A stretch of DNA of 64,000 nt from Simplicispira hankyongi (GTDB lineage: Bacteria; Pseudomonadota; Gammaproteobacteria; Burkholderiales; Burkholderiaceae_C). Under the pieces are notes generated by a model, which saw nothing but the letters and a program-made list of their open reading frames with translations, did no database searches and was not told the origin of the DNA. Position numbers and translations under genes: made by a program. This document shows positions 34,869-51,429 of the stretch, piece after piece. Every line of letters begins with the position of its first letter. Within the stretch, counting starts at the first letter, position 1. The DNA lies in contig NZ_QXJC01000006.1 of the NCBI RefSeq assembly GCF_003570885.1, positions 1 to 64,000 of the forward strand. Reading direction: 5' to 3'.

Positions 34869-35843
34869 TCACAACCGAGGCGACAGCGGCGCGCTGCGGG
34901 CGGCCAGCGCTGCCACGGTTCCCAGCAGCAGGGCGGCCAGCAGGTTGTGCGCCAGGGCGGCGGCCAGGGGCAATTGGGCGAGCACCAGCGTCACGCCAAG
35001 CTCCACTTGCAGCGCTGCCAGAGCCATGAGCAAAGCCGCCTCGCGCCGTCGCTTGGCCTGCCAGGCCGAGAGCGCCAGCATCCCCAGCGCGGTCAGCGTG
35101 GCCAGCGTGGCCAAGCGGTGCAGCAGATGCACGCCCATCCCCGCGGCGTATTCCGGCATTCCAGCCCCTTCACCGGGAGGCAGCCAAAGCTTGAGTGCCG
35201 CCCAGCCATCCGCGCCGGGGCGGCAACTGGAGAGCTGCGGGCAACTCAGGCCTGCGTAGCCTGCGCTCACCAGCGCGCCCAGGCCGATCTGCAGCAGCAG
35301 GACAAGCCCTGCCACCACGGACCAAAGGTGCAGGCGTTGGCGCTGCTGCTCGCCCATGGCGCCTGGTGGCACCGCCAATCGCACACACGCAGCAAACAGC
35401 AGCAGGCCGCCCAACAGGTTGCCCAGCGTCACCGCCGGCGCACGCGTGTTGGCGGTGAAGGGGCCGAGTACGGCAAGAAACAGAACCAAGCCAAGCGCAA
35501 CCAGGACGACGCGCCCCTCGGCGGCCAGGCGCAAGCTGCGCCGCCAGGCGAAGGCTGCCATGGCCGCCAACAGAAGCAGCAGCGACGAGGCCACGGCGCG
35601 GTGCACGGCGCGTGCCGTGTGCTCGGCAGCGCTGGGCGGTGCGCGCGCCGCCTCGGCGCGGGCTGCGCGGGCATGGCATGCCGGCCATGGCGTGCAGTCC
35701 AACCCGGCACTGCTATGGCGCAAAAAGGCGCTCAAACCCGTCACCACCAGCACGAGCAGCGCGCACAGCCAGGCGGCGCGCTGCAAAAGCGTGCGCCGGC
35801 GCCCAAAGGGATCGGTAGAAGGGGGCAAGGGAGGTAGGAGCAT
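34869..35843 (-). CDS. ctaA: Heme A synthase, COX15/CtaA family
   Basis: The 324-residue protein has eight predicted helices and makes heme A from heme O in the membrane. Family marks are conserved histidines in four helices (EHTARAVHR, a QRLHLW stretch, GVHLLHRLATLATL, LAHNLLAALLLG) and a cysteine pair in the first extracellular loop (DCTPWPAC), with a second pair later (SCPQLSSC). The ATG at 35843 was chosen; an earlier CTG is unlikely. It is divergent from the heme-copper operon that includes heme O synthase. Together they suggest that a heme A-type cofactor is used by that operon's enzyme. Confidence 0.85.
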   Translation of the reverse strand: MLLPPLPPSTDPFGRRRTLLQRAAWLCALLVLVVTGLSAFLRHSSAGLDCTPWPACHARAARAEAARAPPSAAEHTARAVHRAVASSLLLLLAAMAAFAWRRSLRLAAEGRVVLVALGLVLFLAVLGPFTANTRAPAVTLGNLLGGLLLFAACVRLAVPPGAMGEQQRQRLHLWSVVAGLVLLLQIGLGALVSAGYAGLSCPQLSSCRPGADGWAALKLWLPPGEGAGMPEYAAGMGVHLLHRLATLATLTALGMLALSAWQAKRRREAALLMALAALQVELGVTLVLAQLPLAAALAHNLLAALLLGTVAALAARSAPLSPRL

Positions 35844-35930
35844 CGCTTTTGGCAGCACCGATTTTGTTCAAAACCACGCAGCTTGCGCGGACTTCCAGGT
35901 GTTTACCACTAGTGCTGGCGCCTATGGACC

Positions 35931-35944
35931 TTGTTGCAAATCAA
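35931..35944 (+). promoter_or_regulatory. FNR/ANR-type box upstream of the heme-copper operon
   Basis: TTGTT-GCAA-ATCAA matches the FNR consensus TTGAT-N4-ATCAA at 9 of 10 defined bases. It is centred 66 bases before the first ATG of the operon. A weak -10 candidate GAAAAT lies at 35966-35971, about the class II distance downstream. The box implies induction at low oxygen; heme A synthase diverges on the other side. Confidence 0.75.
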
Positions 35945-36003: not shown

Positions 36004-36159
36004 ATGGAACACCATGACGACGAGAACGAGAAGGTGCCGATGCTTCAGCAACTGCTCGATAACCCCTTTCTGCTTCTGTTCATCGGGGTGATGGTCCCGA
36101 TGATCGTGTACTCACTCTGGGGGGTGATCGATATCTTGACCATCCCCGTGGCCAAGTGA
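36004..36159 (+). CDS. Small single-helix oxidase-associated membrane protein
   Basis: A 51-residue protein with a charged N-terminus (MEHHDDENEKVPM) and one membrane helix (PFLLLFIGVMVPMIVYSLWGVIDI). Tiny single-helix subunits are usual in B-type heme-copper enzymes, for example the subunit IIa class. A strong GAGGAGA ribosome site precedes the ATG at 36004. It is the first gene after the FNR box and lies 13 bases before the CuA subunit II gene, so it is probably part of that enzyme. Confidence 0.8.
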   Translation: MEHHDDENEKVPMLQQLLDNPFLLLFIGVMVPMIVYSLWGVIDILTIPVAK

Positions 36160-36172
36160 GGGAGAACCGCAT

Positions 36173-36712
36173 ATGAGTGCCATTCTTCCCCCCGCAGAGC
36201 GGCTTTGGTGGAAACACCCGCTTGATCGCGTTGAAGCCGTCTGGATCGCCATTGCCTTTGCCTGGTGCATGGTCATGTTCCTCATGATGGTGTTCTGGCA
36301 TGTCTACGGCAAGCAGAACCTCTCCACGGAAACCTACAAAACCACGCCGGACAAATTCGCCGCCAAGGCACAGGCCATGGTGGACAAATACACCGTGCGC
36401 ACCGAAACCGACGAGAAGATTCCGGTGGTGCATCCGCCCGTGGGCAGCGACATCTACCTCACCGCGCGCCTCTGGGCCTGGAGGCCCATTCTGGAGCTTG
36501 AGAAAGACAAAACCTACAAGCTGCACCTGACTTCCATGGACTACAACCACGGCTTCTCGCTGCAGCCCACCAACATCAATATCCAGGTGGTGCCTGGGTA
36601 CGAGCACGTGGTCAAGATCACGCCCAACCAGTCGGGCCAGTTCTCGATTGTGTGCAACGAATATTGCGGCATCAACCACCACACGATGGTGGGACGCCTC
36701 TACGTGAAATAG
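36173..36712 (+). CDS. Heme-copper enzyme subunit II with CuA site (B-type)
   Basis: The 179-residue protein has one N-terminal membrane helix (VEAVWIAIAFAWCMVMFLMMVFWHVYG) and a periplasmic cupredoxin domain. The CuA ligands are intact: His in MDYNHGFSLQ and the C-x3-C-x3-H-x2-M block CNEYCGINHHTM. The short form with a single helix and VHPPVGSDIYLTARLW resembles subunit II of ba3-type oxidases. It would take electrons from a cytochrome c or cupredoxin and pass them to the catalytic subunit encoded next. Spacing to both neighbours is 13-15 bases. Confidence 0.9.
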   Translation: MSAILPPAERLWWKHPLDRVEAVWIAIAFAWCMVMFLMMVFWHVYGKQNLSTETYKTTPDKFAAKAQAMVDKYTVRTETDEKIPVVHPPVGSDIYLTARLWAWRPILELEKDKTYKLHLTSMDYNHGFSLQPTNINIQVVPGYEHVVKITPNQSGQFSIVCNEYCGINHHTMVGRLYVK

Positions 36713-36727
36713 CAGGAGCACAACACC

Positions 36728-38452
36728 ATGGCTGCAACTTCTGCCGCGCTGTCTGCCAGCGCCACTACCTACCGCACCTGCCCGCGCTCGGGCCTGCAAT
36801 TCGAACGCAATGCCGAGCTTTTGATGAAGTTCAACGCGGTGACGGCTGTCGTCGCGCTGCTCGTTGGCGGCATCCTCGCCATTGGCGTGGTGCTGACCCG
36901 CTGGCCTGCTGTGCACTGGCTGGCTGCCGACACCTTCTACACGGTGCTTACCGCGCACGGCATCAACATGCTCATCTTCTGGATGATCTTCTTTGAAGTC
37001 GCTGTGCTGTACTTTTGCTCGTCGACGCTGCTGCGATGCCGGATCGCCACGCCAAGAATCGCCTGGCTGGCCTACGCGCTGATGCTGATCGGCGCCGTCA
37101 TGAACAACATCGATGTGTTCCGTGGCAACTCCAGCGTGATGATGACGTCCTACGTGCCGATGATGGCCACGCCCTGGTTCTACCTGGGCCTGATCCTCTT
37201 TGCCGTCGGCGCGCTGATTGCCTGCTTCGTGTTCTTTGGCACCCTGGTGGTCGCCAAGCGCGACAAGACCTACCAGGGCTCGGTGCCCCTGGTGACCTTT
37301 GGCGCCATCGTCGCGGCCATCATTGCGGTGTTCACCATCGTCTCCGGCGCCATCATCCTGATCCCGACGTTCTTCCTGTCCATCGGGCTCATCAAGGAAG
37401 TCGATCCGCTGATCTACCGCACCATCTGGTGGGCCTTTGGCCACTCGTCGCAGCAGATCAACGTGGCGGCGCATATCTCGATCTGGTACATGGTGGCCGC
37501 CGTGGTGTTCGGCGCCAAGCCGATGTCCGAGCGGGTGAGCCGTGGCGCTTTTCTGCTCTACATCTTCTTCCTGCAGCTTGCCAGTGCCCACCACTTGCTG
37601 GCCGACCCCGGTGTGAGCACCGAGTGGAAAGTGGTCAACACCAGCTACTTCATGTACTTTGCCGTGCTGGCTTCGATGATCCACGGCTTGACGGTTCCCG
37701 GGGCCATGGAAGTGGCGCAGCGCGCCAAGGGCTACAACAAGGGCTTGTTCGAGTGGCTGCGCAAGGCGCCGTGGGGCAACCCGACTTTCTCCGGGGTGTT
37801 CATCTCCATCATTGGCTTTGGCTTCCTGGGTGGTATTTCGGGGGTCATGATGGGTACCGAGCAGCTCAACCTCCTCATCCACAACACCATCTACGTGCCG
37901 GGCCACTTCCACGCGACGGTGGTGATTGGCACCACGCTGTCGTTCATGGCGCTGACGTACTTCCTGATCCCGGTGTTGTTCAGGCGCGAGACGATTGCGC
38001 CGGGTTTGGCCAAGATTCAGCCTTACCTGTTCGGTTTCTCGATGTACTTCTTCTGCCTGGTGATGATGGGCGCCGGCACCCTGGGCGTCTCGCGGCGGCA
38101 CTGGGACATGGCGTTCTCTGGCGCTGCGCTGGCCTACGAATGGCCGGGAGCGGCCTACCTGATGATGGGTCTGGTCGGCATTGGCGGCATTGCGGCCATC
38201 ACGGGCGGGGCGCTGTTCATCTACATCACGGTCGGTTCGCTGCTGTGGGGCAAGAAGCTTGACCAGGGCGTGGTCAGCCCTCGCTTTACGCCGATTCCGC
38301 CCACTGCACCGACGGCAACTGCGCAGACCTACGGCTCGGCCGGTTTCACGGCGCCCGGCACCTTTGTGCTGGCGATGGTGTTCCTGGTGGCCTTTGTCCT
38401 GTACTACTTCATCAACTGGAAGTACCTCGCACAGCTGTGGGGCCTGTCCTGA
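36728..38452 (+). CDS. B-type heme-copper subunit I with Tyr-to-Gln substitution (oxidase or sNOR-like)
   Basis: The 574-residue catalytic subunit resembles ba3-type cytochrome c oxidases. All six metal and heme histidines are present: His77 (low-spin heme), His239, His288 and His289 (copper site), His393 and His395 (hemes, in VPGHFHATVV). In the reference ba3 enzyme the helix VI motif is H-x3-Y, whose tyrosine is cross-linked to the histidine; here the motif is His239-Ser-Ser-Gln-Gln243. Loss of this tyrosine is reported for the sNOR class of nitric oxide reductases, encoded beside a subunit II and a SenC gene. The same neighbours are found here. A nitric oxide reductase or an unusual oxidase are both possible. 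Confidence 0.85.
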   Translation: MAATSAALSASATTYRTCPRSGLQFERNAELLMKFNAVTAVVALLVGGILAIGVVLTRWPAVHWLAADTFYTVLTAHGINMLIFWMIFFEVAVLYFCSSTLLRCRIATPRIAWLAYALMLIGAVMNNIDVFRGNSSVMMTSYVPMMATPWFYLGLILFAVGALIACFVFFGTLVVAKRDKTYQGSVPLVTFGAIVAAIIAVFTIVSGAIILIPTFFLSIGLIKEVDPLIYRTIWWAFGHSSQQINVAAHISIWYMVAAVVFGAKPMSERVSRGAFLLYIFFLQLASAHHLLADPGVSTEWKVVNTSYFMYFAVLASMIHGLTVPGAMEVAQRAKGYNKGLFEWLRKAPWGNPTFSGVFISIIGFGFLGGISGVMMGTEQLNLLIHNTIYVPGHFHATVVIGTTLSFMALTYFLIPVLFRRETIAPGLAKIQPYLFGFSMYFFCLVMMGAGTLGVSRRHWDMAFSGAALAYEWPGAAYLMMGLVGIGGIAAITGGALFIYITVGSLLWGKKLDQGVVSPRFTPIPPTAPTATAQTYGSAGFTAPGTFVLAMVFLVAFVLYYFINWKYLAQLWGLS

Positions 38453-38466
38453 AACGGAGGCAAGCC

Positions 38467-39366
38467 ATGCACACCGACACGCTCCACCCCGCGCGCAGCC
38501 TGGCTGTGCAACGCACCCGCGACGTGATCTCGCTGTTCAAGCTGCGTATCGGCTCGCTCATCATGGTCACCGCCTTGGTGGGCATGGTGGTGACGCCAGG
38601 CCCGGCGCCGAGCTGGCTGCAAGTCCTGGTGCTGGCCCTGTCGGTGCTGGTCGCGTCGGCCAGCGCCGGCGCTTTCAACCAGTACGTCGAGCACGAGAGC
38701 GACCAGCTCATGGCGCGCACGCGCCGGCGGGCCTTTGTCACCGGCGCACTGCCGCACCACCCGGCCTGGCTGGTGCTGATGGGCGCCATGCTGGTGGGTG
38801 CGGTGGCCGCTGCCTGGCTGGTGCTCAATGGCGCGGCGGCGGTGTATGTGTTCCTGGGCGCCTTCTTCTACGCCTTTGTCTATACCGTGTGGCTCAAGCG
38901 CCGAAGTGCCCTGAACATTGTCGTCGGCGGCCTGGCTGGCAGCTTCGCCGTGCTGGCGGGCGCAGCGGCCGTCAATCCCACGCTCGGGCCGCTTCCCTTG
39001 CTGCTGGCCCTGGTGCTCTTTTTGTGGACCCCGCCGCATTTCTGGTCTTTGGCTATTGCCAATCGGGCGGACTATGCGCAGGCGGGCGTTCCCATGCTGC
39101 CGGTGGTGGTCGGCAACGAGCGCGCTGCGCGCATCGTGCTGGCCAGTACGGTGGCGCTCCTGGTGGCCTCTCTTCTGCCCGTGTTCTGGGGTGCGGGGCC
39201 AGTGTATGCCGTCGGGGCGTTGGGTGGTGGACTGCACTTCGTGCACAAGGCCTGGGTGCTGGCGCGTGAAGTGACGCGGCCCCATGCGATGTCGGCATTT
39301 TTTGCCTCCCTGATCCAACTGAGCACCCTGCTGGTGGCAGCTTGCATCGACGGCCTGGTCCGCTGA
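38467..39366 (+). CDS. ctaB: Heme O synthase (protoheme IX farnesyltransferase)
   Basis: The 299-residue integral membrane prenyltransferase adds a farnesyl chain to protoheme to make heme O. It has about eight helices, the Asp-rich site near NQYVEHESDQLMARTRRRAF and the second region LFLWTPPHFWSLAIANRADYAQAGVPMLPVV, both diagnostic of CyoE/CtaB. The ATG at 38467 has a GGAGG ribosome site. It lies 14 bases after the subunit I gene. With divergent ctaA it supplies the special heme needed by the operon's enzyme. Confidence 0.92.
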   Translation: MHTDTLHPARSLAVQRTRDVISLFKLRIGSLIMVTALVGMVVTPGPAPSWLQVLVLALSVLVASASAGAFNQYVEHESDQLMARTRRRAFVTGALPHHPAWLVLMGAMLVGAVAAAWLVLNGAAAVYVFLGAFFYAFVYTVWLKRRSALNIVVGGLAGSFAVLAGAAAVNPTLGPLPLLLALVLFLWTPPHFWSLAIANRADYAQAGVPMLPVVVGNERAARIVLASTVALLVASLLPVFWGAGPVYAVGALGGGLHFVHKAWVLAREVTRPHAMSAFFASLIQLSTLLVAACIDGLVR

Positions 39367-39379
39367 ACGAGAGTTGCCC

Positions 39380-40252
39380 ATGCGCTGTCGTCCCTCACTT
39401 GCTGCGCTGCTGCTGGCGTGGGCGATGGGGTGCGGCGCGGCGCTGTCGCTTCCTGTGCAGGCGCAAGAGGCCGTGCCGCCCGGGTCGGCGCACGGTTTCG
39501 ATGTCCGCCTCGCCTTGCGCGCCAGCCAGGACGCTGTCGGACGAGAGCTGGGCGAGCACCTGTTTCGCGACCGCAATGGCCGCACGGTTGCTCTCTCGGG
39601 CTACCGGGGCAAGCCACTCCTGGTGAGCTTTATCTATACCGGATGCTTTCAGATCTGCCCCGGCACGACGCGTGCGCTGCAACAGGCGGTACAGGCGCTG
39701 GAAAAGAGCGTGGGCCCCGGGCAGTTCAATGTCGTGAGCATTGGCTTTAACCAGCCTGAGGATTCGCCCCAGGCGCTCAAGGCCTTTGCCGCAAAGTTCA
39801 ACATCGGTTCCGGCAATTGGGAGTTTCTGAGCCCGCGTGCTGCCGATGTTCCGGCGCTGGCGCGCGATTTCGGGTTTTTGTTCCAGCCCACCACGGCGGG
39901 TTTTGACCATGTGCTCCAGCTGAGTCTGGTGGACGCACAAGGACGCATCGTGCGGCAGATCTATGGCGAGCAGTTGAATGCGGCCGATCTCGGCGAGCCG
40001 CTGCGGCTGCTGCTGGCAGGTGCGCCAGTAGCGCGAGAGCGCGTGCTGGAGGGGCTGTGGGAGCGCGTTCGCCTGGTGTGTACGGTGTACGACGCGAAAA
40101 CTGGCAACTACCGCGTGGACTACACCTTGCCGATACAGATTGCCGGCGGCCTGACGTTCTTTGTCGTCATGATGGTGTTCTTCTTCAACGAGTGGCGCGC
40201 GAGCCGCCGCAGTGCCCGCCAGCGCCCGCCTGCGCGCCCGCGCCGCGCTTGA
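39380..40252 (+). CDS. SCO1/SenC family copper chaperone
   Basis: The 290-residue protein has an N-terminal signal or anchor, a thioredoxin-like SCO domain with the copper ligands Cys89-x3-Cys93 (YTGCFQICPG) and a later His (AGFDHVLQ), and an added C-terminal membrane helix (IQIAGGLTFFVVMMVFFFNEW). SCO proteins load the CuA site of subunit II. The C-terminal helix is an extension that usual SCO proteins do not have. The ATG at 39380 was preferred over an in-frame TTG 6 bases earlier. SenC next to subunits I and II also matches the norSY-senC layout described for sNOR. Confidence 0.87.
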   Translation: MRCRPSLAALLLAWAMGCGAALSLPVQAQEAVPPGSAHGFDVRLALRASQDAVGRELGEHLFRDRNGRTVALSGYRGKPLLVSFIYTGCFQICPGTTRALQQAVQALEKSVGPGQFNVVSIGFNQPEDSPQALKAFAAKFNIGSGNWEFLSPRAADVPALARDFGFLFQPTTAGFDHVLQLSLVDAQGRIVRQIYGEQLNAADLGEPLRLLLAGAPVARERVLEGLWERVRLVCTVYDAKTGNYRVDYTLPIQIAGGLTFFVVMMVFFFNEWRASRRSARQRPPARPRRA

Positions 40253-40263
40253 GATACGGGCGA

Positions 40264-41913
40264 ATGACCGTTTCATCCAGCCTGCTCCCTATCGTGCCGG
40301 TCCCCAGCGCGCCGGCGCGGCTGTGGCGCGCACTGGAGCACGGCTTCGACGCGCTGGCAGGCACCAGCGGCAATCCGCTCAAGCACCTGGGGGCTCTGGG
40401 GTTCTGGTTGCTGTGGCTGCTCGTGGGCAGTGGCGCCGTGCTCTATGCGGTGCTCGACACTTCGGCCAGTGGCGCCTACCCGTCCATCAACATGCTCTCG
40501 CGCGAACCCCGGCAATGGGGGAGTCTTCTGCGTGGCTTGCACCGCTACAGCGCAGATGCCATGGTGGTCGTGGTGCTGGCCCACGTTGTGCGGGAATGGA
40601 TGCTGGGGCGGTTCCGCAGCTTTCGCGCGCCTTCCTGGTTGACGGGCGTGCCACTGCTGCCGCTGATGTTTGTCTGTGCCATCGGCGGTTTCTGGCTCAA
40701 TTGGGACCGCCTGGGCCAGTTTTCCGCGACCGCGACGGCCGAGTGGCTGGACGCGTTGCCGGGTCTGGCCTCGCCACTTTCGCGTAACTTTCTGGGCGGC
40801 ACCCAGTTGAACGACCGACTGTTCTCGCTGTTTGTCTTCGTGCACCTGGGTGTGCCGTTGCTGCTGGTGTTTGGCCTGTGGTTCCATGTCCAGCGCATCA
40901 GCCGCCCGGCGGTCTTTCCGCCGCGTGCGCTGGCCATTGGGAGCGCGCTTGCCCTGCTGGTGCTGGCCGCCGTTGTGCCCGTGCGCAGCCAGGGGCCTGC
41001 CGATCTGGGTACGGTGCCTGCAGGGCTGGCCTACGACTGGTTGCTGCTGTTCATCCATCCGCTCACCGCCGCCACCTCCGCCGCGCTGGTCTGGGGCCTG
41101 CTGGGCGCCACGCTGGCTTTGTTGCTGGCGCTGCCCTGGCTCGGCTTTCGGCGGCGCGTTGCGGTGCCTGAGGGCCGTGCGCAGGAGGCGCAGGTGCGCT
41201 CGCCCGCAACGTCACACACCGGTTGGCGCCCGATCGCGCTGGCGCAATTGGTGGCCGAGGTAGACCCAGCCCACTGCAGTGGGTGCCGCCGCTGCGTGGA
41301 AGACTGCCCCTACGCCGCCATCACCATGGTGCCGCACCCCAGCGGCCGCGTGGGGATGGAGCTGGCGCAGGTGCGCAGCGACCTGTGCGCCAGCTGCGGT
41401 ATTTGCGTGGGTTCCTGCCCTTCGTCCACACCGTTTCGCAGCGCACAAGTGCTGCACACAGGCATCGACATGCCGCAATGGCCCATCGATGCGCTGCGCC
41501 AGCAGATGCTCGCCGGCCTGGCCGCCTTGCCCGGACCCGAGCGCTACGTGGTGTTTGGCTGTGCGCAGGGTGCGCAGCTTGATGCGCTTGCTGCGCAGGG
41601 CGTGCTGGTGCTGCCGCTGGTGTGCACCGGCCTGCTGCCGCCGTCTTTCGTTGAGTACGCGTTGCGCGCTGGAGCCAATGGCGTCCTGATTGCGACGTGT
41701 CGCGAGGGTGGCTGCGCTTTCCGTCTGGGCGAGCGCTGGACGCGCGAACGCCTGCTCGGCCAGCGCGAGCCGCGCCTGCGTGCCGGTGTGCCGCGGCAGG
41801 CGTGGTCGCTGGTTGCGGCCGATGCCGGTGATGAGGCGGCACTCGCGGCGGCATTGACAGCCCTGCGCGCGCGTGCGGCAGAACCTTTCGTTCCCTTGGA
41901 GTTTTTTGCATGA
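40264..41913 (+). CDS. Diheme cytochrome b - 2[4Fe-4S] ferredoxin - MvhD-like fusion
   Basis: The 549-residue protein joins three parts. Residues about 30-320 form a cytochrome b6-like bundle with two pairs of heme histidines (LHRYSADAMVVVVLAH and VHLGVPLLLVFGLWFH). Residues about 335-390 carry two [4Fe-4S] motifs (CSGCRRCVEDCP, CASCGICVGSCP). Residues about 425-530 resemble the MvhD/FrhD iron-sulfur subunit of hydrogenase-heterodisulfide reductase complexes (VFGCAQGAQ, LVCTG, ATCREGGC). Electrons could pass between a soluble donor and the membrane quinone or hemes. I know of no named protein with this order. The start at 40264 lies 11 bases after the SCO gene; the stop overlaps the next gene by 4 bases. 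Confidence 0.83.
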   Translation: MTVSSSLLPIVPVPSAPARLWRALEHGFDALAGTSGNPLKHLGALGFWLLWLLVGSGAVLYAVLDTSASGAYPSINMLSREPRQWGSLLRGLHRYSADAMVVVVLAHVVREWMLGRFRSFRAPSWLTGVPLLPLMFVCAIGGFWLNWDRLGQFSATATAEWLDALPGLASPLSRNFLGGTQLNDRLFSLFVFVHLGVPLLLVFGLWFHVQRISRPAVFPPRALAIGSALALLVLAAVVPVRSQGPADLGTVPAGLAYDWLLLFIHPLTAATSAALVWGLLGATLALLLALPWLGFRRRVAVPEGRAQEAQVRSPATSHTGWRPIALAQLVAEVDPAHCSGCRRCVEDCPYAAITMVPHPSGRVGMELAQVRSDLCASCGICVGSCPSSTPFRSAQVLHTGIDMPQWPIDALRQQMLAGLAALPGPERYVVFGCAQGAQLDALAAQGVLVLPLVCTGLLPPSFVEYALRAGANGVLIATCREGGCAFRLGERWTRERLLGQREPRLRAGVPRQAWSLVAADAGDEAALAAALTALRARAAEPFVPLEFFA

Positions 41914-42413
41914 ATCGCGTTTTCGTCCTGGCAGGCCAGGCGCTGCTGTACGGCGGTTTTGCGCTGTTGATCGGCGTTTTTTCGCACTGGCCGGCGTATG
42001 CCCCGCTTGCCGCGGATGAGGCGCTGATCAAGCTCAGTTTCGTCCACCACGGCAAGCGCATCGCAGAGTGCCGCCCTTACACGGCGGCGGAGCTCGCCAA
42101 ATTGGCGCCCAACATGCGTGCGCCGCTCAAGTGCGAGCGCGAGCGCGCGCCCGTGACGGTGGAGCTCGACATCGACGGCGCAACCGCCTACCGCTACACG
42201 GCTGCGCCGTCCGGGCTCTCGCGCGACGGCGCCTCTACCGTGTACAAGCGCCTGGAAGTGCGCTCGGGCACGCACCGCATCACCGTGCGTCTGCGCGATA
42301 CCACGGCAACCAGTGGATTCAACTACCAGCACGAAGCCACCGTTGACCTCAAGCCCGCCCAGGTGCTGGTGATCGACTTCGATCCTGAGCGTGGAGGCAT
42401 CGTCCTGCTATGA
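41910..42413 (+). CDS. Membrane-anchored hypothetical protein of the cytochrome locus
   Basis: The 167-residue protein has one N-terminal membrane helix (LAGQALLYGGFALLIGVFSHWP) and a periplasmic domain of about 130 residues with an immunoglobulin-like beta pattern (PVTVELDIDGATAYRYTA, HRITVRLRDTT, AQVLVIDFDPERGGIVL). Two cysteines (AECRPYT, LKCERER) could form a disulfide. It overlaps both neighbours by 4 bases, so it is made together with the cytochrome b fusion and the divergent heme-copper subunit. A small accessory subunit or assembly factor is plausible. No named family is recognised. Confidence 0.75.
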   Translation: MNRVFVLAGQALLYGGFALLIGVFSHWPAYAPLAADEALIKLSFVHHGKRIAECRPYTAAELAKLAPNMRAPLKCERERAPVTVELDIDGATAYRYTAAPSGLSRDGASTVYKRLEVRSGTHRITVRLRDTTATSGFNYQHEATVDLKPAQVLVIDFDPERGGIVLL

Positions 42414-43867
42414 GCGCCTTGGCCCCTTCTTCTTTGGTGTCCACTGGGGCGCCTTCTGCGCGCCCTGTACCAGCTCGTGTGGCGGCCGACTATTCGCTGG
42501 CTGTCCCACAAGACGCGCGCCGCGCTCTGGCGCGCAGTTGGCTCTGGCTCGGCGTGTCGGCCTTGGTGGGCTCGGGCCTGTTCTCCATCTTGCTGGTCCT
42601 CTCGCGCACGCCGGGGGTGAACCGACTGCTGCCAGCGGCAGACTTCTTTCATACCTCGCTGGTGCTGCACGTGGATCTCTCGGTGCTGGTGTGGTTCATG
42701 GCCATGGCGGGCCTGCTCTGGAGCCTGCACGGCAGCCCGCGCGGGTTGCGCTGGGGCTGGGCCGCGCTGTGGACCTGTGCGGCCGGCACCTTGGCGATGG
42801 CGGTCGCGCCCTTCCTGAATGGGGGCGAGCCCATCATGGCCAATTACATCCCGGTGCTGCACTCGCCGCTGTTCCTGGTCGGTCTCGTGGTGTTTGGCCT
42901 GGGCGTGGGGGTGCTCGCGCTGCGCAGCATTCTGGTGGCGCCGCGCCTCGGGGTGGCGTTTGGCGGGCACGGCGCACTCGGCTTTGGCCTGGACGCTGCC
43001 GCTGTGGCAACGGTGGTGGCGTTGCTGGCCTTTGGCTGGTCGTTGGCCAAATTGCCCTTGGTGCTGCCCGGCAAGGCGTATTACGAAATCCTGTTCTGGG
43101 GTGGCGGCCATGTGCTCCAGTTCACCTGGACGCTGCTCATGCTGGTGGGATGGTTGTGGCTGGCGAACGCCTGCGGCGCGCGGCTGCTGCTGAGCCCGCG
43201 TGTCACGGTTTTCATGTTCGCACTCGCGCTGGCAGGGGTGTTCGTCACGCCCTGGGCCTACCTGGCCTATGACATCAGTTCGGTCGAGCACCGGGCGCTG
43301 CTCACCTGGGCGATGCGCGCCGGCGGCGGCACGGCCATCGTCCCGGTCGCGCTGGCGGTGGTGGTGGCCTTGTACCGCCAGCCGCTCTCGCACGCCACGC
43401 AGAACCCGCTGCGTGCGGCGGTGCTGGCGTCCATCCTGCTGTTTGGCGCTGGGGGGGTGATCGGCATCTTCATCAGCGGCAGCAACGTGCGCATCCCGGC
43501 GCACTACCACGGCTGCATCGTCGGCGTGACGCTGGCGCTGATGGGGCTGGTCTACCACTTGCTGCCGGCGCTCGGCTATGCAGCGCCGCAAGGGCGGCTC
43601 GCAGTGGCGCAGCCCTGGGTTTACGGCCTGGGGCAGCTGATGCACATCATCGGTCTGGTGTGGTCCGGTGGCTACGGCGTGCAGCGCAAGGTGGCGGGCG
43701 CCGAGCAAGTGCTGCGCTCTAGCGGCGAGGTGGCCGGCATGGCGCTGATGGGGCTGGGTGGGCTGGTGGCCATCGTGGGTGGGGTGTTGTTCATTGTGGT
43801 GGCCGTCCGGGCGATGCGTGCAGGCGCCGCGCAGGCGGATGGCAGCGAAATGGTGGTCTCTTCATGA
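42410..43867 (+). CDS. Divergent heme-copper subunit I homologue with Glu-His active-site change
   Basis: The 485-residue protein has about twelve helices and the heme-copper fold. His87 (LHVDLSVLVW) and the pair His365/His367 (IPAHYHGCIVG) match the heme ligands, and His234 (WGGGHVLQF) matches the first copper-site ligand. The helix VII pair, normally His-His, reads Glu293-His294 (SSVEHRALL), and position +4 after His234 is Phe, so no cross-linked Tyr. A carboxylate at the metal site recalls nitric oxide reductases, which have an iron site with Glu. It is not a standard cbb3 or aa3 subunit. The stop overlaps the next gene by 4 bases. Its reaction is unknown. Confidence 0.75.
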   Translation: MSALAPSSLVSTGAPSARPVPARVAADYSLAVPQDARRALARSWLWLGVSALVGSGLFSILLVLSRTPGVNRLLPAADFFHTSLVLHVDLSVLVWFMAMAGLLWSLHGSPRGLRWGWAALWTCAAGTLAMAVAPFLNGGEPIMANYIPVLHSPLFLVGLVVFGLGVGVLALRSILVAPRLGVAFGGHGALGFGLDAAAVATVVALLAFGWSLAKLPLVLPGKAYYEILFWGGGHVLQFTWTLLMLVGWLWLANACGARLLLSPRVTVFMFALALAGVFVTPWAYLAYDISSVEHRALLTWAMRAGGGTAIVPVALAVVVALYRQPLSHATQNPLRAAVLASILLFGAGGVIGIFISGSNVRIPAHYHGCIVGVTLALMGLVYHLLPALGYAAPQGRLAVAQPWVYGLGQLMHIIGLVWSGGYGVQRKVAGAEQVLRSSGEVAGMALMGLGGLVAIVGGVLFIVVAVRAMRAGAAQADGSEMVVSS

Positions 43868-45810
43868 AAGTGTTCCAGGCAGCCCTGCAGTGGCTCTTCA
43901 TGCGCGTCGAGGCGCTGTTCAACCGTGCCTTTGGCGACCGTATCAACCCGCTGTACCACCTAGGGTCCATCACCTTCTTCCTGTTCTGGGTTGTGGGCGG
44001 CAGCGGCTTGTACCTGTACGCGTTCTTCGAGACCGGCGTTTCGGGCGCCCACGACTCGGTGCTGTCGATCACGCACGGGCAGTGGTGGCTGGGCGGCATC
44101 CTGCGCAGCGTGCACCGCTACGCGTCGGACGCCATGGTGCTGACCATGGTGCTGCACATGCTGCGCTACTTTGCGTTCAACCTGTTCCACGGCTTCCGCT
44201 GGTTTTCCTGGGTCACCGGGGTGGCGCTGATCTGGCTGGTCTACGCCTCGGGTGCCAACGGCTACATGCTGCCCTGGGACACGCTGGCGCAGTACGTGAC
44301 CGTCTCCAGCTTCGAGTGGCTTGACTGGCTGCCGCCCTTCAGCGGCACGCTGATGCGCAATTTCGTCTACGCCGACAGCGTCAGCGACCGCTTTTTCTCG
44401 CTGCTGTCCTTTCTGCATATCGGCTTGCCGCTGGTGGTGCTGCTGCTGATGTGGATCCACGTGCAGCGCGTGCCCAAGGCGCGCACCACGCCGCCACGCC
44501 CGATCGTCATTGGCCTGGTGCTGACCTTCCTGGTCATGGCACTGGTGGCGCCGGTGGACAGCCAGGGCGGCGCAGCCGATCTGGCCAGGGCGGTCATGAG
44601 CGTCAAGCTCGACTGGTTCCTGCTGGCGATCTACCCCTTGATCAGCCAATGGCCGCTAGGCAAGGTGTGGGCGCTGGTGTCGGGCGTCACGCTGGTGCTG
44701 CTGCTACTGCCGCTGTGGCCCCAGCCGCGCCGCAAAGGCCAGGGCACCTTGCATGCCACGGTGCGCGGCGAAGATGGCAGCGCCGCCGAGTTCACCTTGC
44801 GCCCTGGGGAGACGCTGCTGGACGCCGGCCTGCGCGACGGTCTCGCTCTGCCTTACGAGTGCCGCAATGGCGCTTGCGGCCTGTGCCTGTGCAGCATGGA
44901 GCAGGGCACGGTGGAGCACCGCCCCTACCAGAAGACGGCGCTGTCGGACGCCCAACTGGCGCGTGGACTGGCGCTGATGTGCTGCGCCGTGCCCAATGGC
45001 GATGTGGTGATCGCGGTCGATGGCTTCACCGGCGCCAGTGCGGCCGAAGTGCCACAGTACGAGGCACGCGTTGTGCACATGGAGCATCTGGCCGACGATG
45101 TGATGCGCCTTCGGCTGGAGCTGCCCGGCGCCGAGCGATTGCCCTTCGAGGCGGGCCAGTACATCGACATCGTGCTGGAAGATGGCCAGCGCCGCGCCTT
45201 CTCGTTTGCCAATCCCCCCCAGAACAATGCGCTCATCGAACTGCACGTGCGCCTGGTGCCGGGCGGGCGTTTCACCACCCATGTGTTCGACGGTATGCAG
45301 GTGGGCGATACCGTCACCTTTGAAGGCCCGCGCGGCCAGTTCACGCTGCGGGACGGCACCGAGCCCATACTGTTTATCGCCGGCGCCACGGGTTTTGCGC
45401 CCATCAAGAGCATTCTGGAAGACGCCTTTGCGCGCGGTATCACCCGGCCCATGCGCCTGTACTGGGGTGTGCGCGACCGCAAGGATCTGTACATGCTCTC
45501 GCTGTGCGAAGCGTGGCAGCGCGAGCACAGCAACTTCAGTGTCGTGCCCGTGGTGTCGGAACCTGTGCCGGGCGACGGCTGGGAGGGGCGCATTGGCCTG
45601 GTCCACGAAGCCATGCTGGACGATTTCCCCGACCTCAGCGGCCACGAGGTCTACCTGTGTGGCTCGGTGCGCATGGTGGAGGCCGCGGTGCCGGCCTTCC
45701 TGGCGCAGGGGCTCGCCGAGGGGGCATGCTTCTCGGATGCGTTCGTGCCAGCGGCGCGGCCGGTATCGGCTGCCGTTTCAGAGCCTGGCGCTCAAAGCCC
45801 CAGCGTTTGA
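43864..45810 (+). CDS. Diheme cytochrome b - 2Fe-2S ferredoxin - FAD/NAD reductase fusion
   Basis: The 648-residue protein starts with a cytochrome b6-like domain (residues about 20-280) with two heme-histidine pairs ([32 protein letters not shown]). A plant-type 2Fe-2S ferredoxin follows, with cysteines in [13 protein letters not shown] and MCC (about residues 330-370). Then come an FAD domain (RAFSFANPP near residue 443) and an NAD domain ([10 protein letters not shown] near residue 507, EVYLCGS near the end). The reductase part resembles oxygenase reductases. NAD(P)H electrons could thus reach membrane b hemes and the neighbouring divergent heme-copper protein. Its 3' end overlaps the convergent ubiD gene by 19 bases. 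Confidence 0.85.
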
Positions 45811-47276
45811 GCCAGCGCGTCCATGCGCGCCGCCACATCGGCGTCCATGGCGATGGTGCGGCCCCATTCGCGCTGCGTCTCGCCCGGCCATTTGTTCGTG
45901 GCGTCCATCCCCATCTTGCTGCCCAGGCCGCTGACCGGCGAGGCGAAGTCGAGGTAGTCGATGGGCGTGTGCTCGATGAGCATGGTGTCGCGTACCGGGT
46001 CCATGCGCGTGGTCATGGCCCACACCACGTCCTTCCAATGGCGCACGTCCACATCGTCGTCCACCACCACGATGAACTTGGTGTACATGAACTGGCGCAG
46101 ATGGCTCCACACGCCCATCATCACGCGCCGCGCGTGGCCGGGGTAGGCCTTTTTGATGCGCACCAGCGCCATGCGGTAACTGCAGCCCTCGGGTGGCAAA
46201 TAGAAATCGACGATCTCCGGGAACTGGCGCTGCAACAGCGGGATGAACAGCTCGTTGAGCGCCACGCCCAGCACCGCCGGTTCGTCCGGTGGCTTGCCGG
46301 TGTAGGTGGAGTGGTAGAGCGCGTCCTTGCGCAAGGTGATGCGGTCCACGGTGAACACCGGGAACTCGGCGCGCTCGTTGTAGTAGCCGGTGTGGTCGCC
46401 GTACGGGCCTTCGAGCGCGTGCTGCCAGCCGCTGGCGTGTGCGGCATCGGGGTAGATATGGCCTTCAAGCACGATTTCGGCATGCGCTGGTACCGAGAGT
46501 GGCACGCCGAGTGCCTTTGCCACCTCGGTGCGCGCGCCGCGCAGCAGGCCGGCAAACTGGTATTCGGACAGGCTGTCGGGCACGGGCGTCACGGCGCCCA
46601 GGATGGTCGCCGGGTCGGCGCCAATGGCGACGGCCACCGGGTAGGGCTCGCCGGGGTGCAGGCGGCAGTGCTCGGCAAAATCGAGCGCGCCGCCGCGGTG
46701 TGCCAGCCAGCGCATGATGAGCTGGTTGCGCGACAGCACCTGCTGGCGGTAGATGCCCAGGTTTTGCCGTGTCTTGTGCGGCCCGCGCGTGATGACCAGG
46801 CCCCAGGTGATGAGCGGCGCCACGTCGTCTGGCCAGCAGTGCTGAATGGGCAGGCGCGCCAGGTCCACGTCCTGTCCTTCCCACACCAGCTCCTGGCAGG
46901 GTGGGTTGCTGCGCTCCTTGGGCGCCATGTTCCACAGGGTTTTGAGCAGGCTGCCCATGCCCACCATCTCCTTGAAACCCTTGGGCGCCTCGGGCTCCTT
47001 GAGCGACGCCAGCAGCTCGCCAAACGGGCGCAGGCCGGCGATGCTGTCCACGCCCATGGCGCGCGCCACGCGCTCGGGCGTACCAAACAGGTTGGCCAGC
47101 ACGGGCATGCTGTGGCCCGTGGGGTTTTCAAACAGCAGGGCCGGGCCGCCCGCGCGCAGCACCCGGTCGCACAGGGCCGTCATCTCCAGGTGCGGCGAGA
47201 CGGGCTCGGTGATGCGGCGCAGCTCGCCGGTCTGTTCGAGCTGGGTGAGGAAGCTGCGGAGGTCGTGGCTGGGCAT
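45792..47276 (-). CDS. ubiD: 4-hydroxy-3-polyprenylbenzoate decarboxylase UbiD
   Basis: The 494-residue enzyme removes the carboxyl group of the ubiquinone precursor, using prenylated FMN made by UbiX. Family blocks are [17 protein letters not shown] at the start, [22 protein letters not shown], and the central [43 protein letters not shown] holds the catalytic Glu/Arg region, and [22 protein letters not shown] follows. The ATG at 47276 lies just below a repeat copy; a longer frame through the repeat is not credible as a start. UbiX is encoded upstream on the same strand. The 3' end overlaps the convergent cytochrome b fusion gene. Confidence 0.93.
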
Positions 47277-47286
47277 GGCGCTGAAT

Positions 47287-47345
47287 TTTGAATGAAAACA
47301 GGCTCTACCGCTTATGGGTATTGCGCTGCAAGCTACTAGTTTAAT
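47287..47345 (-). repeat. Dispersed hairpin repeat, copy 6 (diverged)
   Basis: On the minus strand: AACTAGTAGCTTGCAGCGCAATACCCATAAGCGGTAGAGCCTGTTTTCATTC. The stem is weakened by mismatches. It lies between ubiX and ubiD, 11 bases before the ubiD ATG, in the direction of transcription. Confidence 0.7.
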
Positions 47346-47409
47346 AGCGTTTCTGGGCCTGGCTACGTGTGCCAAGGCCCATCGGTGTGCCGGGCCGCGA
47401 TCGCCGCCC

Positions 47410-48027
47410 TTATTGTGGCCCTACCGGGGCATCGGCTTCCCATGCCGTCTCCCCGTTCCACCGGGTCGCCAGCGCATGCGGCACCCCCAGCAGATCCAGC
47501 ACCCGCGCCACGCTGGCATCCACGATGTCGGCCACGCTGTGCGGACGCAGGTAGAAGGCGGGCATGGGCGGGCAGACGATGGCGCCCATTTCGGTCACGC
47601 TGACCATGTTGCGCAGATGGCCCAGGTGCAGGGGGGTCTCGCGCGCCATCAGGATCAGGCGGCGGCGTTCTTTCAGCACCACGTCGGCGGCGCGTGTGAG
47701 CAGGTTGTCCGACAGGCTGTGCGCCACCGAGGCCAGCGTGCGCATCGAGCAGGGCGCCACCACCATGCCGGCGCACTGAAACGAGCCACTGGCAATGCTG
47801 GCGCCCACGTCGCGTGCGTCGTGCGCCTGGTGTGCCAGGGCTTCAACGGCGGGGCGCTCCAGGCCCAGCTCATGGCGCAGTGTGCGCCAGCCGGCGTCGG
47901 ATACCACCAGGTGCGATTCGGCGCCGGGGTATTCGCGCAGCGCCTGCAGCAGGCGCACGCCATACACCGCGCCGCTGGCGCCCGAGATGCCGACGATGAT
48001 GCGTTGCGGTGCGCTGGGAATGTCCAT
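47410..48027 (-). CDS. ubiX: Flavin prenyltransferase UbiX
   Basis: The 205-residue flavoprotein makes prenylated FMN, the cofactor of UbiD. It shows the typical [21 protein letters not shown] start, [12 protein letters not shown], the [43 protein letters not shown] core, and [12 protein letters not shown] near the end. The ATG at 48027 gives normal length. It lies between the DGC-domain gene and ubiD, all on the minus strand. The 133-base gap to ubiD contains a repeat copy. Confidence 0.95.
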
Positions 48028-48037
48028 GGTGGCAAGC

Positions 48038-48481
48038 TTATGCCAATCGCAGGGCTTGGCCGCCTCCGGCGGCCTGGTTCGCCGCGTCGGTGTTGCGCGG
48101 GGTGGCCGCCAGCGGGTGCGCCAGCAGGTCGGCCTGCACCTGTGCCAGCACGGCGCTCGCCTGTGCGGGGTCGAAATCTTCGTGGCGGCGCTTTTTCACG
48201 CCGTACTGCTGCAATTGGTAATGCCGTTCGGCGGTGATGCCATGGCGCGCCAGGCACCCTTGCACGCAGTTGAGCGGGCAGCCGTCGAGCGCGATGATGG
48301 GGCGGCCCGAGTGCGCGGTGCGTACCAGGTTGGGTACGTCGCCGCCGACACCGGCAATGCACGACATCTCGGCCACGCCGGCACGGTCCAGGCGCAGGGC
48401 GACGTGGTTGGCCAGCTGCGCGGCGCTGGAACACCCCGAGCAGGAATAGACCAGGGGCAACACAGTGTGGTCGCTGTTCAT
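48038..48481 (-). CDS. DGC-domain putative zinc-binding protein
   Basis: The 147-residue protein matches the DGC domain family, named for the motif seen here in LDGCPLNCVQGCLARHG, with further cysteines in YSCSGCSSAAQLAN and MSCIAG. The cysteines suggest zinc or another metal. The end is a polar tail. Function in the family is unknown. Its ATG at 48481 overlaps the ubiT stop by 4 bases, and ubiX follows directly, so it is embedded in ubiquinone genes. A role in metal supply or redox sensing for the anaerobic pathway would be a guess. Confidence 0.8.
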   Translation of the reverse strand: MNSDHTVLPLVYSCSGCSSAAQLANHVALRLDRAGVAEMSCIAGVGGDVPNLVRTAHSGRPIIALDGCPLNCVQGCLARHGITAERHYQLQQYGVKKRRHEDFDPAQASAVLAQVQADLLAHPLAATPRNTDAANQAAGGGQALRLA

Positions 48482-49008
48482 GGCTGGGTACTGGGGGTGA
48501 GCGGGTCGGCAGGGCGTGCGCCGGGGCGCAGGGCGGCGAGGCGCGAGAGCACCTGGCGCGGCGCCCACTGCTGCAGGTCGAGCACCGGCAGGTCCAGCGC
48601 GTCGAGCGTGTTTTTCACCACTAGGCCCAGTTCGGTGTCGCCTTCCATGACCAGGCGGCGGTTGAAGAACAGCGTGTCCGGGTCTTGCTGGCGCTGTGCC
48701 AGCAGCAGAAAGTCGTGCGCGGAGGCCGCGATGCACAGGTCGGTCTCGCGCTGGCGCGGCCGGGCGGCGAAGGCGTTGCCGGTCCAGGTGAAATCCAAAG
48801 TGACACGGGCATCGCGCACCTGGATGCGCAGGCGCTTGCCGCGCAGCATCTCGCCCACATCGCTTGGAATTTGGCGCGCGACGCCCAGGTTGAGCGCCGT
48901 CACCAGCAAGAGCGAGCCCGGGTACGCGGGCAGCCGCCCGGTGAGCGCCGCCAGGGGCGTGGGCAGGGTGAAGGGGCGCGAGGTGGTGGTGGAGGCGGAG
49001 GCGTTCAT
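48478..49008 (-). CDS. ubiT: SCP2-domain lipid-binding protein UbiT
   Basis: The 176-residue protein has an SCP2 sterol-binding domain in residues about 35-140: LRIQVRDARVTLDFTWTGNAFAARP, ETDLCIAASAHDFLLLAQRQQDPDTLFFNRRLVMEGDTELGLVVKNTLDALD. UbiT is the lipid-binding partner in oxygen-independent ubiquinone synthesis, where UbiJ serves under air. Neighbouring ubiU and ubiV confirm the call. It lies 114 bases after ubiV, with a repeat copy in between, and overlaps the DGC-domain gene. Confidence 0.9.
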   Translation of the reverse strand: MNASASTTTSRPFTLPTPLAALTGRLPAYPGSLLLVTALNLGVARQIPSDVGEMLRGKRLRIQVRDARVTLDFTWTGNAFAARPRQRETDLCIAASAHDFLLLAQRQQDPDTLFFNRRLVMEGDTELGLVVKNTLDALDLPVLDLQQWAPRQVLSRLAALRPGARPADPLTPSTQP

Positions 49009-49040
49009 GGCGTTCCTTGTGGGGTGGTGTTCTCTGCTTC

Positions 49041-49090
49041 TATCTTGATAGCTGTTAGCGCTTATCCAATAAGCGTCAGAGGCACTTTTG
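49041..49090 (+). repeat. Dispersed hairpin repeat, copy 7 (opposite to the operon)
   Basis: TATCTTGATAGCTGTTAGCGCTTATCCAATAAGCGTCAGAGGCACTTTTG lies between ubiV and ubiT. It is the only one of the ten copies oriented against the surrounding genes. The stem TTAGCGCTTA/TAAGCG is retained. Confidence 0.8.
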
Positions 49091-49122
49091 AATCGTATTT
49101 TTCGAGTCGCATCGCTTGGGTG

Positions 49123-50046
49123 TCAGGCAGGAGCCAGCGCTGGCGTTTCCACCAGATCCAGGCCGGGCTGGCCGTGCCAGTAGCCGTTGCAGCTCTGGTC
49201 GGGCACCAGGGGCTGCAGTTGGGCGCGGGCGTCGCGCGGTGCCAGCGTGCCGCGGCGCACGGCGTCGAACAGGGCGACGATCTCGCCCGTGTGCTGGGCC
49301 TGCGGGCTGATGCGGGCCACGGCGACACCCATGCGCTGCATGCGCGGCAGTTCGTCGACCAGGTTGTGCACGCGGGCCGATTGCGTCTGGATGCCGTTGA
49401 GCACCAGAAAATCCTGGCTCTCGCGCGTCTTGAGCATCAGGCCGTCGGGGTGGTCCATGCAGCTGAACTGGCAATCGTCCTTGGGCAAATTGCGCTGGCG
49501 CGCGGTGAAACACCGTGCCGAGAAGGCCAGCGGCATGCGGCCATAGGCAAACACCTCGGTCTGCAGGTTCTGCGGGCCGGCCTCGATCAGGGCGGAAAGG
49601 TCCTGGTGCTTCATCTCCAGCGGCGCCACCCAGCGCGTGGCGCCCAGCGAAGCCAGCCAGGTGAGCGAGGGTTGGTTGTAGATATTCAGGTGCAGACCGC
49701 CAACAAAGGGGCGCTGGCCCGCCAGGCGCTGCACCGCGCCCATGTCGTTGGCTTCGATGAGGTAGTCCAGGTTGCTGGTGACCTTGTGCATGGCACTCAC
49801 CTCGACGCCCGATTCGAGCAGCACCTGGGTGGACAGCACGGCCTCCTTGCCCGAATCGCGCATCAGGTCGGCAATGTCGATCCAGTCGGACAGGCGCAGC
49901 TCATGGCGGCGCGAGCACACGGTCTCGCCCAGGTAGACGATGTCCACCGGCGAGGCGGCGATGGCCTCGTAGAAATCAAAAATGGTCTGGCGCGGCCAGT
50001 AGTACTGCAGCGCACCGAGGGAGAGTTTCAAAGCGGGCATCGTCAT
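49123..50046 (-). CDS. ubiV: Oxygen-independent ubiquinone hydroxylase component UbiV
   Basis: A 307-residue U32-peptidase-like protein. UbiV and UbiU form a heterodimer with one [4Fe-4S] cluster each and hydroxylate the ubiquinone ring without oxygen. Four cysteines fit the cluster: one in YLGETVCSRRHEL and three in ARCFTARQRN and DDCQFSCMDHP. The start is coupled to the ubiU stop (TAATG). Two near ATGs, 50046 and 50040, are possible. It is followed by ubiT on the same strand. Confidence 0.93.
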   Translation of the reverse strand: MTMPALKLSLGALQYYWPRQTIFDFYEAIAASPVDIVYLGETVCSRRHELRLSDWIDIADLMRDSGKEAVLSTQVLLESGVEVSAMHKVTSNLDYLIEANDMGAVQRLAGQRPFVGGLHLNIYNQPSLTWLASLGATRWVAPLEMKHQDLSALIEAGPQNLQTEVFAYGRMPLAFSARCFTARQRNLPKDDCQFSCMDHPDGLMLKTRESQDFLVLNGIQTQSARVHNLVDELPRMQRMGVAVARISPQAQHTGEIVALFDAVRRGTLAPRDARAQLQPLVPDQSCNGYWHGQPGLDLVETPALAPA

Positions 50047-51107: not shown

Positions 51108-51429
51108 GCGGAGACCAGGAGAAAAGCGCGAGCGCCGCAGGGCCGGGCGACTGCGCAATAGCGCGCAACCATACGCGCGACCGGCACGCTGTGCGCTGAC
51201 CTTTGTCAAGACTGCGCCACAATCGAAGCCGCCCCTCGGCGCCCACACGACGGACAAAGACAGCCGCGGCCCCGCAGAATGGTTCTAGAAACGCCGCATG
51301 GTGCGGCCAGCGTGGTGCTGGTGGGTGCCTAGCGCTGTCTGCCCCAGAGGGGCGCGCCAACGAAGCCAACCATGCCGGTCGCCATGCGACTTTTCAGACG
51401 ATAACGAGCGATCAACGGCCGGTTCCAGG
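51108..51429. other. 322-base divergent gap between ubiU and an MFS gene
   Basis: This gap carries the promoters of ubiU (minus) and the MFS gene (plus). The FNR-type promoter candidate lies at 51168-51209. A GGTTCCAGGATG stretch before 51430 provides the MFS ribosome site. No RNA gene, repeat copy or convincing small frame was seen in the rest. Confidence 0.6.
51168..51209 (-). promoter_or_regulatory. Class II FNR-type promoter candidate of ubiUV
   Basis: The minus strand carries TTGAC-AAAG-GTCAG at 51209-51196, a near-palindrome related to the FNR consensus, and TATGGT at 51173-51168. If TATGGT is the -10 hexamer, the box centre falls at -41.5 from the start site near 51161, the exact class II spacing. 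The box differs from TTGAT-N4-ATCAA at three of ten bases, so the geometry is the stronger evidence. Oxygen-limited expression would suit UbiUV. Confidence 0.5.

Follow-up and report, generated by a model that had tools for sequence, protein, structure and literature searches.

A predicted eNOR-type nitric oxide reductase operon with two cytochrome b fusions and a heme-copper homologue lacking two CuB histidines in Simplicispira hankyongi

The stretch analysed here, referred to as the window, comprises 64,000 nucleotides of Simplicispira hankyongi (contig NZ_QXJC01000006.1, positions 1 to 64,000 of the forward strand) and carries nine open reading frames (ORFs) on the + strand, positions 36004-45810, that form one operon-like run. 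The first three are predicted to encode a nitric oxide (NO) reductase of the eNOR type, and the sixth accompanies eNOR almost one-to-one across the genomes examined. Characterised from Rhodothermus marinus, eNOR is among the newly recognised sources of the greenhouse gas nitrous oxide (N2O). An earlier sequence-only reading of this DNA had described nine genes on one strand in a set order, with short gaps or 4-base overlaps, preceded by a near-consensus FNR box. ORFs and domain searches agree with it gene by gene, with gaps of 13, 15, 14, 13 and 11 bases from gene 1 to gene 6 and 4-base overlaps at the last three junctions, and the box was found just outside the run. The starts of genes 4, 5 and 6 were set to ATG codons read from the sequence. 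The features are:

35931..35944, + strand: FNR/DNR-type box TTGTT-GCAA-ATCAA, 9/10 consensus bases, 73 bases before gene 1
36004..36159, + strand: gene 1, 51-residue small membrane protein of the eNOR module (ORF, recurrence in relatives)
36173..36712, + strand: gene 2, subunit II with CuA cupredoxin domain, CxxxC..H..M (PF00116, residues 111-172)
36728..38452, + strand: gene 3, predicted eNOR-type subunit I with His77, His239, His288/289, His393, His395 and Gln243 (alignments, tree)
38467..39366, + strand: gene 4, heme O synthase, CtaB/CyoE (Pfam/NCBIfam, ATG at 38467)
39380..40252, + strand: gene 5, SCO1/SenC copper chaperone (Pfam, ATG at 39380)
40264..41913, + strand: gene 6, diheme cytochrome b fused to two [4Fe-4S] clusters and a four-Cys MvhD/FlpD domain (Pfam/NCBIfam, alignment, ATG at 40264)
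41910..42413, + strand: gene 7, one N-terminal helix and a mostly beta domain, two invariant Cys (alignment, structure model)
42410..43867, + strand: gene 8, heme-copper subunit I homologue with His87, His365, His367, His234 and Gln237 (alignments, model)
43864..45810, + strand: gene 9, diheme cytochrome b fused to a [2Fe-2S] ferredoxin and an FAD/NAD(P) reductase (Pfam/NCBIfam, alignment)

The predicted reductase core and its denitrification context

The Pfam/NCBIfam scan assigned gene 2 to COX2 (CuA domain), gene 3 to COX1, gene 4 to heme o synthase and gene 5 to SCO1/SenC, found cytochrome b with 4Fe-4S and FlpD domains in gene 6 and cytochrome b with Fer2 and FAD/NAD domains in gene 9, and gave no family match for genes 1 and 7. 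Genes 4 and 5 are assembly factors. A small protein also lies 5' of subunit II in Defluviimonas, Thermus and Thermomicrobium.

In gene 3 the histidine sextet for two hemes and CuB is complete (His77, 239, 288, 289, 393 and 395), a cupredoxin (CuA) subunit II adjoins it, and its best solved-structure matches are ba3-type oxidases, which points to a B-family relationship. Gln243 occupies the alignment position of the helix VI tyrosine of ba3 oxidases, the residue cross-linked to one of the CuB histidines. Among 121 distinct relatives (at least 40% identity among the fetched loci), this glutamine is present in all 119 that are ungapped at the position, 2 being gapped. Apart from gaps and two Lys at the last position, all six histidines are conserved as well: H288, H289 and H393 are found in 121/121 and H395 in 118/121, with two Lys and one gap. 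Lysine at the second histidine of the HFH motif, a low-spin heme ligand, was seen in eNOR-like subunits I of Thermus plasmids (L203, L223). In a tree of 42 hand-picked proteins the Gln-type, Tyr-type and gene 8 proteins were each set off by one branch (95/92, 100/100 and 100/100); its named eNOR anchors are limited to Gln-type proteins from plasmids of Defluviimonas, Thermus and Thermomicrobium, and the tree program warned that the Tyr-type and gene 8 proteins sit on long branches that meet.

At the tyrosine position, eNOR is listed with Q, sNOR and CuANOR with N, and gNOR with D (PMC8756737 Table A4). Because Gln at this position together with the six retained histidines is the published eNOR signature, we assign genes 1-3 to a predicted, B-family-related NO reductase of the eNOR type, a label set against the residues of sNOR, CuANOR and gNOR. 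The likeness extends to the eNOR (ba3-a1) of Ardenticatena maritima and Magnetospirilli, with the same Gln-for-Tyr, B-related subunit I and a cupredoxin subunit II directly upstream (PMC8756737), and to the SCO protein within the operon (PMC6431628, PMC8879329). The gene layout had suggested an sNOR/bNOR (CuA-NOR) identity: Bacillus CuA-NOR/bNOR and Nitrosomonas sNOR (norSY-senC) share the small membrane protein, CuA subunit, subunit I, SenC and, once, ctaB (PMC3475470). This identity was rejected, as the locus has Gln where Bacillus CuA-NOR and sNOR have Asn (PMC8756737 Table A4; PMC3475470 for Bacillus). Unlike the locus here, those enzymes are not described with cytochrome b fusions in the accessible part of PMC3475470. 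The sequence-only reading, which knew no described complex of this composition, was right in its observations and in part in its interpretation: the core, genes 1-5, matches a known kind of NO reductase, eNOR/ba3-a1 (PMC8756737, PMC6431628, PMC8879329). For genes 6-9 as eNOR partners, the architecture of gene 6, a tail-swapping cytochrome b or a CuB-less paralogue, we found no description in the accessible parts of the openly licensed papers to which the search was limited. It should be noted that database records name eNOR subunit I cytochrome c oxidase, so that N2O potential can be missed.

The box upstream of gene 1 is conserved in relatives beyond chance. It occurs with at least 9/10 consensus bases in 39 of 86 distinct upstream regions of gene 1, against control rates of 1.8% for 4250 segments of 250 bases drawn at random from these loci and 0.8% for the upstream regions after shuffling; with at least 8/10 it occurs in 71 of 86 (control 10%), and 42 of these 71 sit 65-110 bases upstream. 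Matches to the cytochrome d1 family, which also takes in NirF and NirN, were obtained (E<=1e-40) in 47 of 50 eNOR genomes vs 8 of 29 others, a contrast that is illustrative, since the comparison genomes were partly hand-picked: ten were chosen for carrying gene 8 without eNOR (6/10 with d1), and the other 19 gave 2/19. The host genome (3.7 Mb, 19 contigs) itself has cytochrome d1 family matches (best E 9.7e-151) and six COX1-family genes, four of which, beyond genes 3 and 8, we take by eye to be aa3, cbb3, cbb3-like and cNOR NorB. With these d1 matches and the NorB-like gene, the host appears to be a denitrifier that has a conventional NOR in addition to the eNOR locus. These results bear out the low-oxygen, NO-linked setting that had been proposed from the letters of the DNA, and a denitrification role of the locus is well supported. 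On one Thermus plasmid an annotated nirS lies ~3 kb from an eNOR-like pair, and on a second, Rrf2 and DUF542 genes follow such a pair. In A. maritima, eNOR is in an operon with NirK (PMC4653789); NirK was rejected as eNOR partner here, with matches in 3 of 50 eNOR genomes, all under the curated cut-off, vs 7 of 29 others.

Probable cytochrome b partners of eNOR

Genes 6 and 9 share a diheme cytochrome b half, with four invariant histidines each, and differ in their tails. In gene 6, the four heme histidines and twelve cysteines are invariant in 16 aligned rows. Its tail gives matches to FlpD and to the C-terminal region of HdrA2 (NF040770, E 5e-18, under cut-off), and thus resembles HdrA2/MvhD (FlpD) modules; unlike HdrA2, it is fused to cytochrome b, no other HdrA2 part was matched, and there is no heterodisulfide reductase gene in the operon. 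The diheme part of both genes matches NF040969 (ExtP-type) and NF002990, both under cut-off, and Pfam covers only the N-terminal half of cytochrome b. This part is like that of ExtP-type b cytochromes and cytochrome b6; the difference lies in the cytoplasmic redox tails and in the domain scan of the operon, which found no Rieske protein or subunit IV partner among the nine genes. The accessible part of PMC8756737 tabulates one protein with cytochrome b6 and FlpD domains, RME88945.1, among proteins with cytochrome c domains and does not present it as an eNOR partner.

We compared a set of named loci, a class sample of 369 genomes and a phylum sample of 299 genomes, with some genomes, including that of the window, shared between the samples. 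The named loci are the best 80 of 358 confirmed gene 8 relatives and, as the closest relatives, favour the window's own layout. In a set of 20 relatives, all nine genes were found in 14; two loci (L031, L032) run into a contig end within gene 3, and four have eight genes (gene 4 is missing from L042, gene 9 from L044 and L046, and gene 6 from L045). The link between the last genes and the first five is borne out: eNOR subunit I is present in 72 of the best 80 of 358 loci, and gene 6 or gene 9 in all 72, the number of loci with both being an upper bound as the cytochrome b half of gene 6 can itself register as a gene 9 match (L044 is an example); the five loci lacking gene 6 were inspected by hand. 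Gene 6 or gene 9 was likewise found in all 20 relatives of the set above and in 11 of 13 class stretches with eNOR, the exceptions being L181, which meets a contig end, and L185, where gene 6 is 16 kb away.

In the class sample, 33 genomes have both gene 6 and eNOR, 1 eNOR only, 1 gene 6 only and 334 neither, the 34 eNOR genomes being what remained of 35 matches after G460, a Tyr-type ba3 protein, was taken out of the count. The corresponding numbers in the phylum sample are 28, 1, 5 and 265. Five of the six genomes with gene 6 and no detected eNOR (G314, G571, G587, G595, G672, G722) are under 85% complete. The two genes are not always neighbours: the class pairs lie within 6 kb in 27 of 33 cases, farther apart on one contig in 2 and on different contigs in 4, and the phylum pairs, with the window excluded, within 6 kb in 13 of 27, farther on one contig in 2 and on different contigs in 12. 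The 16 pairs on different contigs may just reflect fragmentation of draft genomes; the clear cases are the four on one contig (G256, G367, G539, G520), 13.6 to 19 kb apart. Gene 6 was not found in eight cytochrome d1 genomes without eNOR (G108, G114, G165, G166, G198, G253, G401, G448), and we conclude that it tracks eNOR and not nitrite reduction in general; it is present in all three eNOR genomes with no d1 match (G210, G219, G327). Overall, gene 6 is genuinely associated with eNOR, near one-to-one, and is not a random neighbour. Two adjacent gene 6 copies were seen in four genomes (G586, G648, G672, G722), all of family f236.

Where gene 6 is missing, gene 9 seems able to stand in its place. 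Full-length gene 9 without gene 6 at the locus was found in L045, L062, L073 and L076, and a fifth locus, L119, has only gene 9 residues 1-330. Whole-genome searches of G081 and of the genomes of L062, L076 and L073 gave no full gene 6; what the gene 6 query did hit was the cytochrome b half of gene 9 in each of the four, and in three of them a distantly related cytochrome b as well. Conversely, full-length gene 9 was not found in six genomes with gene 6 (G210, G313, G430, G432, G346, G113), which gave separate domain matches only. Gene 9 is optional where gene 6 exists, and the genome of the window carries both. We infer a constant element, the cytochrome b half, to which the tails of genes 6 and 9 are predicted to add alternative entries, making the two proteins interchangeable cytoplasmic electron inputs on one conserved cytochrome b. 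The samples thereby give eNOR a near-constant partner in Pseudomonadota, in two forms with different predicted donors.

Genes 7 and 8

The model of gene 7 (predicted local distance difference test score, pLDDT, 93.0) had no PDB fold match at E<=0.001. Gene 8 matches COX1 weakly (PF00115, 43 bits), aligns to subunit I with an hhalign probability of 99%, and has a model nearest to ba3 oxidases (query template modelling, TM, score 0.61-0.68); a PDB profile search with it returned nothing at E<=0.01. Its heme ligands His87, 365 and 367 are present in 118 of 121 distinct homologues, the rest having gaps and one Tyr at 87. It keeps one of the three CuB histidines (His234), plus the conserved Gln237. 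The adjacent CuB histidine pair occurs in 0/121, a single histidine stands there in one, and L165 shows one histidine by another alignment. These alignments identify gene 8 as a true subunit I homologue with its predicted heme ligands kept and its copper site apparently lost. Both subunit-I-like proteins are consequently non-canonical, as first noticed from the sequence: gene 3 by Gln for Tyr, gene 8 by the absence of two CuB histidines. A conserved relative of the catalytic oxidase subunit that has kept its hemes and given up its copper site would be an unusual heme-copper protein.

Gene 8 is present in 46 genomes of the class sample (weak cross-matches in G266, G332 and G363 were removed), comprising 28 of the 34 eNOR genomes and 18 without detected eNOR. 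An obligate eNOR subunit was considered and rejected, given the 6 of 34 eNOR genomes without it and the 18 genomes that have gene 8 and no detected eNOR. In G314, which has genes 8 and 6 without detected eNOR, eNOR may hide in a gap. A plasmid of Defluviimonas has genes 1-7 followed by a hemerythrin gene (L202 14517-14921) where gene 8 would stand. In 7 of 24 gene 8 stretches without eNOR, a ctaA-like gene lies at most 1.2 kb away by BLAST (L168, L171, L175, L187, L189, L191, L195), one stretch being counted twice among the 24 as L176 and L193; Pfam adds L174. The genomes of L187, L191 and L195 carry eNOR on another contig, and several of the stretches hold ordinary cytochrome oxidase genes. 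Gene 8 is probably a heme-only accessory protein that helps and is not required; an electron carrier, an NO or heme binder and an assembly factor would all fit.

Where eNOR was not detected in the genome, CuB-less gene 8 homologues (L162, L168, L171, L174, L175, L189) have oxidase, ctaA or ctaB genes close by, which makes a separate context. A gene 8 homologue in L163 shares its stretch with a sigma factor, a PF13447-type multiheme cytochrome and what looks by eye like a RuBisCO-like gene.

Proposed electron supply to eNOR, and neighbouring genes

We favour, with a little better than even confidence, a reading in which eNOR reduces NO with the cytochrome b proteins of genes 6 and 9 as alternative electron inputs, gene 7 as docking protein and gene 8 as accessory, all under FNR/DNR control. 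NO from nitrite reductase would be turned, 2 NO into N2O, at a heme-CuB site in which Gln takes the place of the oxidase tyrosine, in an enzyme supplied by genes 4 and 5 with heme O and copper. Electrons would enter from NAD(P)H via FAD and [2Fe-2S] through the tail of gene 9, or from a ferredoxin or flavoprotein donor via the [2Fe-2S] MvhD domain and two [4Fe-4S] clusters through the tail of gene 6, and two bis-His hemes would pass them to quinone, or straight to the CuA subunit in a supercomplex, with gene 7 as a periplasmic docking subunit. NO reduction would thereby gain a bc1-independent route, and an FNR/DNR-family regulator would induce the operon when oxygen is low or NO is present, alongside nitrite reduction. 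We infer direct feeding of eNOR by the cytochrome b proteins; its stronger version, an eNOR supercomplex fed by the tail-swapped diheme cytochrome b, with the copper-free heme-copper subunit as a second electron-carrying or NO-binding core, is a tentative proposal that we hold rather doubtful. If true, it would amount to NADH- or ferredoxin-dependent NO respiration bypassing the bc1 complex and cytochrome c.

Several observations weigh against cytochrome b input to eNOR. CuA enzymes are expected to accept electrons from cytochrome c, and it may be the quinone pool alone that the cytochrome b proteins supply, with no contact to eNOR; NO reductase activity and the complex are predicted from sequence. 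The association of gene 6 with eNOR (Fisher P 8e-45 in the class and 4e-33 in the phylum sample) is expressed in values that ignore the shared ancestry of genomes, and the whole-genome search for gene 9 covered 12 genomes. In G363 and G524, eNOR was found without detected gene 6 or full-length gene 9, the contig of G363 ending just after gene 3. Thermus and Thermomicrobium plasmids carry eNOR-like subunits with no gene 6 or 9 in the fetched stretches, and a search of Thermus plasmids, not of the chromosomes, gave no relative of gene 6; therefore, cytochrome b input is not part of eNOR as such. On L120, a 10-kb contig with no eNOR, genes 6 and 8 stand beside an A-type oxidase cluster. Gene 8, moreover, is dispensable and is also found in other contexts.

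The main rival holds that the fusions are quinol dehydrogenases which carry electrons in reverse, from quinol to NAD(P)+ or ferredoxin, during denitrification, and which have only their regulation in common with eNOR. Having only the N-terminal cytochrome b half in genes 6 and 9, with no Rieske protein in the operon, is consistent with it; the neighbouring ubiquinone-type genes listed below fit a quinone role, and a cytochrome b/b6 fusion with a reverse-transfer role has reportedly been proposed for Accumulibacter (the paper did not come up in our literature search). We nevertheless consider this rival unlikely, as the near one-to-one relation of gene 6 and eNOR, which extends to the three d1-less eNOR genomes and to the eight d1 genomes that have neither, is tighter than a general redox-balancing enzyme would show. 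Genes 6-9 could instead be maturation or protection factors of eNOR, acting in heme insertion, copper delivery or reductive repair of nitrosylated sites and not in electron supply. The frequent proximity of gene 8 homologues to ctaA outside the eNOR cluster (7/24 stretches by BLAST, and L174 by Pfam), the conserved Cys pair of gene 7 and the assembly factors already in the operon speak for such a role; however, genes 6 and 9 hold complete conserved ligand sets for transmembrane electron transfer, and their mutually replacing tails differ in the predicted electron donor, and we regard a purely maturational function as distinctly improbable.

Genes 1-3 could also encode a high-affinity oxygen reductase for which NO reduction is not the main activity; such a function was argued for the related sNOR of Nitrosomonas europaea from low-oxygen induction (PMC6967387). 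This reading strikes us as very improbable: the oxidase tyrosine is replaced by Gln in every readable relative (119 of 121), most of the tested genomes carry cytochrome d1 proteins, and an eNOR has been biochemically characterised and reported as an NO reductase (PMC11388526, PMC8879329).

The operon is flanked by genes on the - strand:

34869..35858, - strand: ctaA-like gene (COX15/CtaA, heme A synthase family), divergent neighbour (Pfam)
45792..51257, - strand: ubiD, ubiX-like flavoprotein, DGC-domain, SCP2 (ubiT-like) and two U32 (ubiV/ubiU-like) genes (domains)

The downstream genes, named from their domains and order, are presumably an oxygen-independent ubiquinone set, and 9 to 15 of the best 80 of 358 loci hold each of them. 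A ctaA-like gene adjoins the cluster in many relatives.

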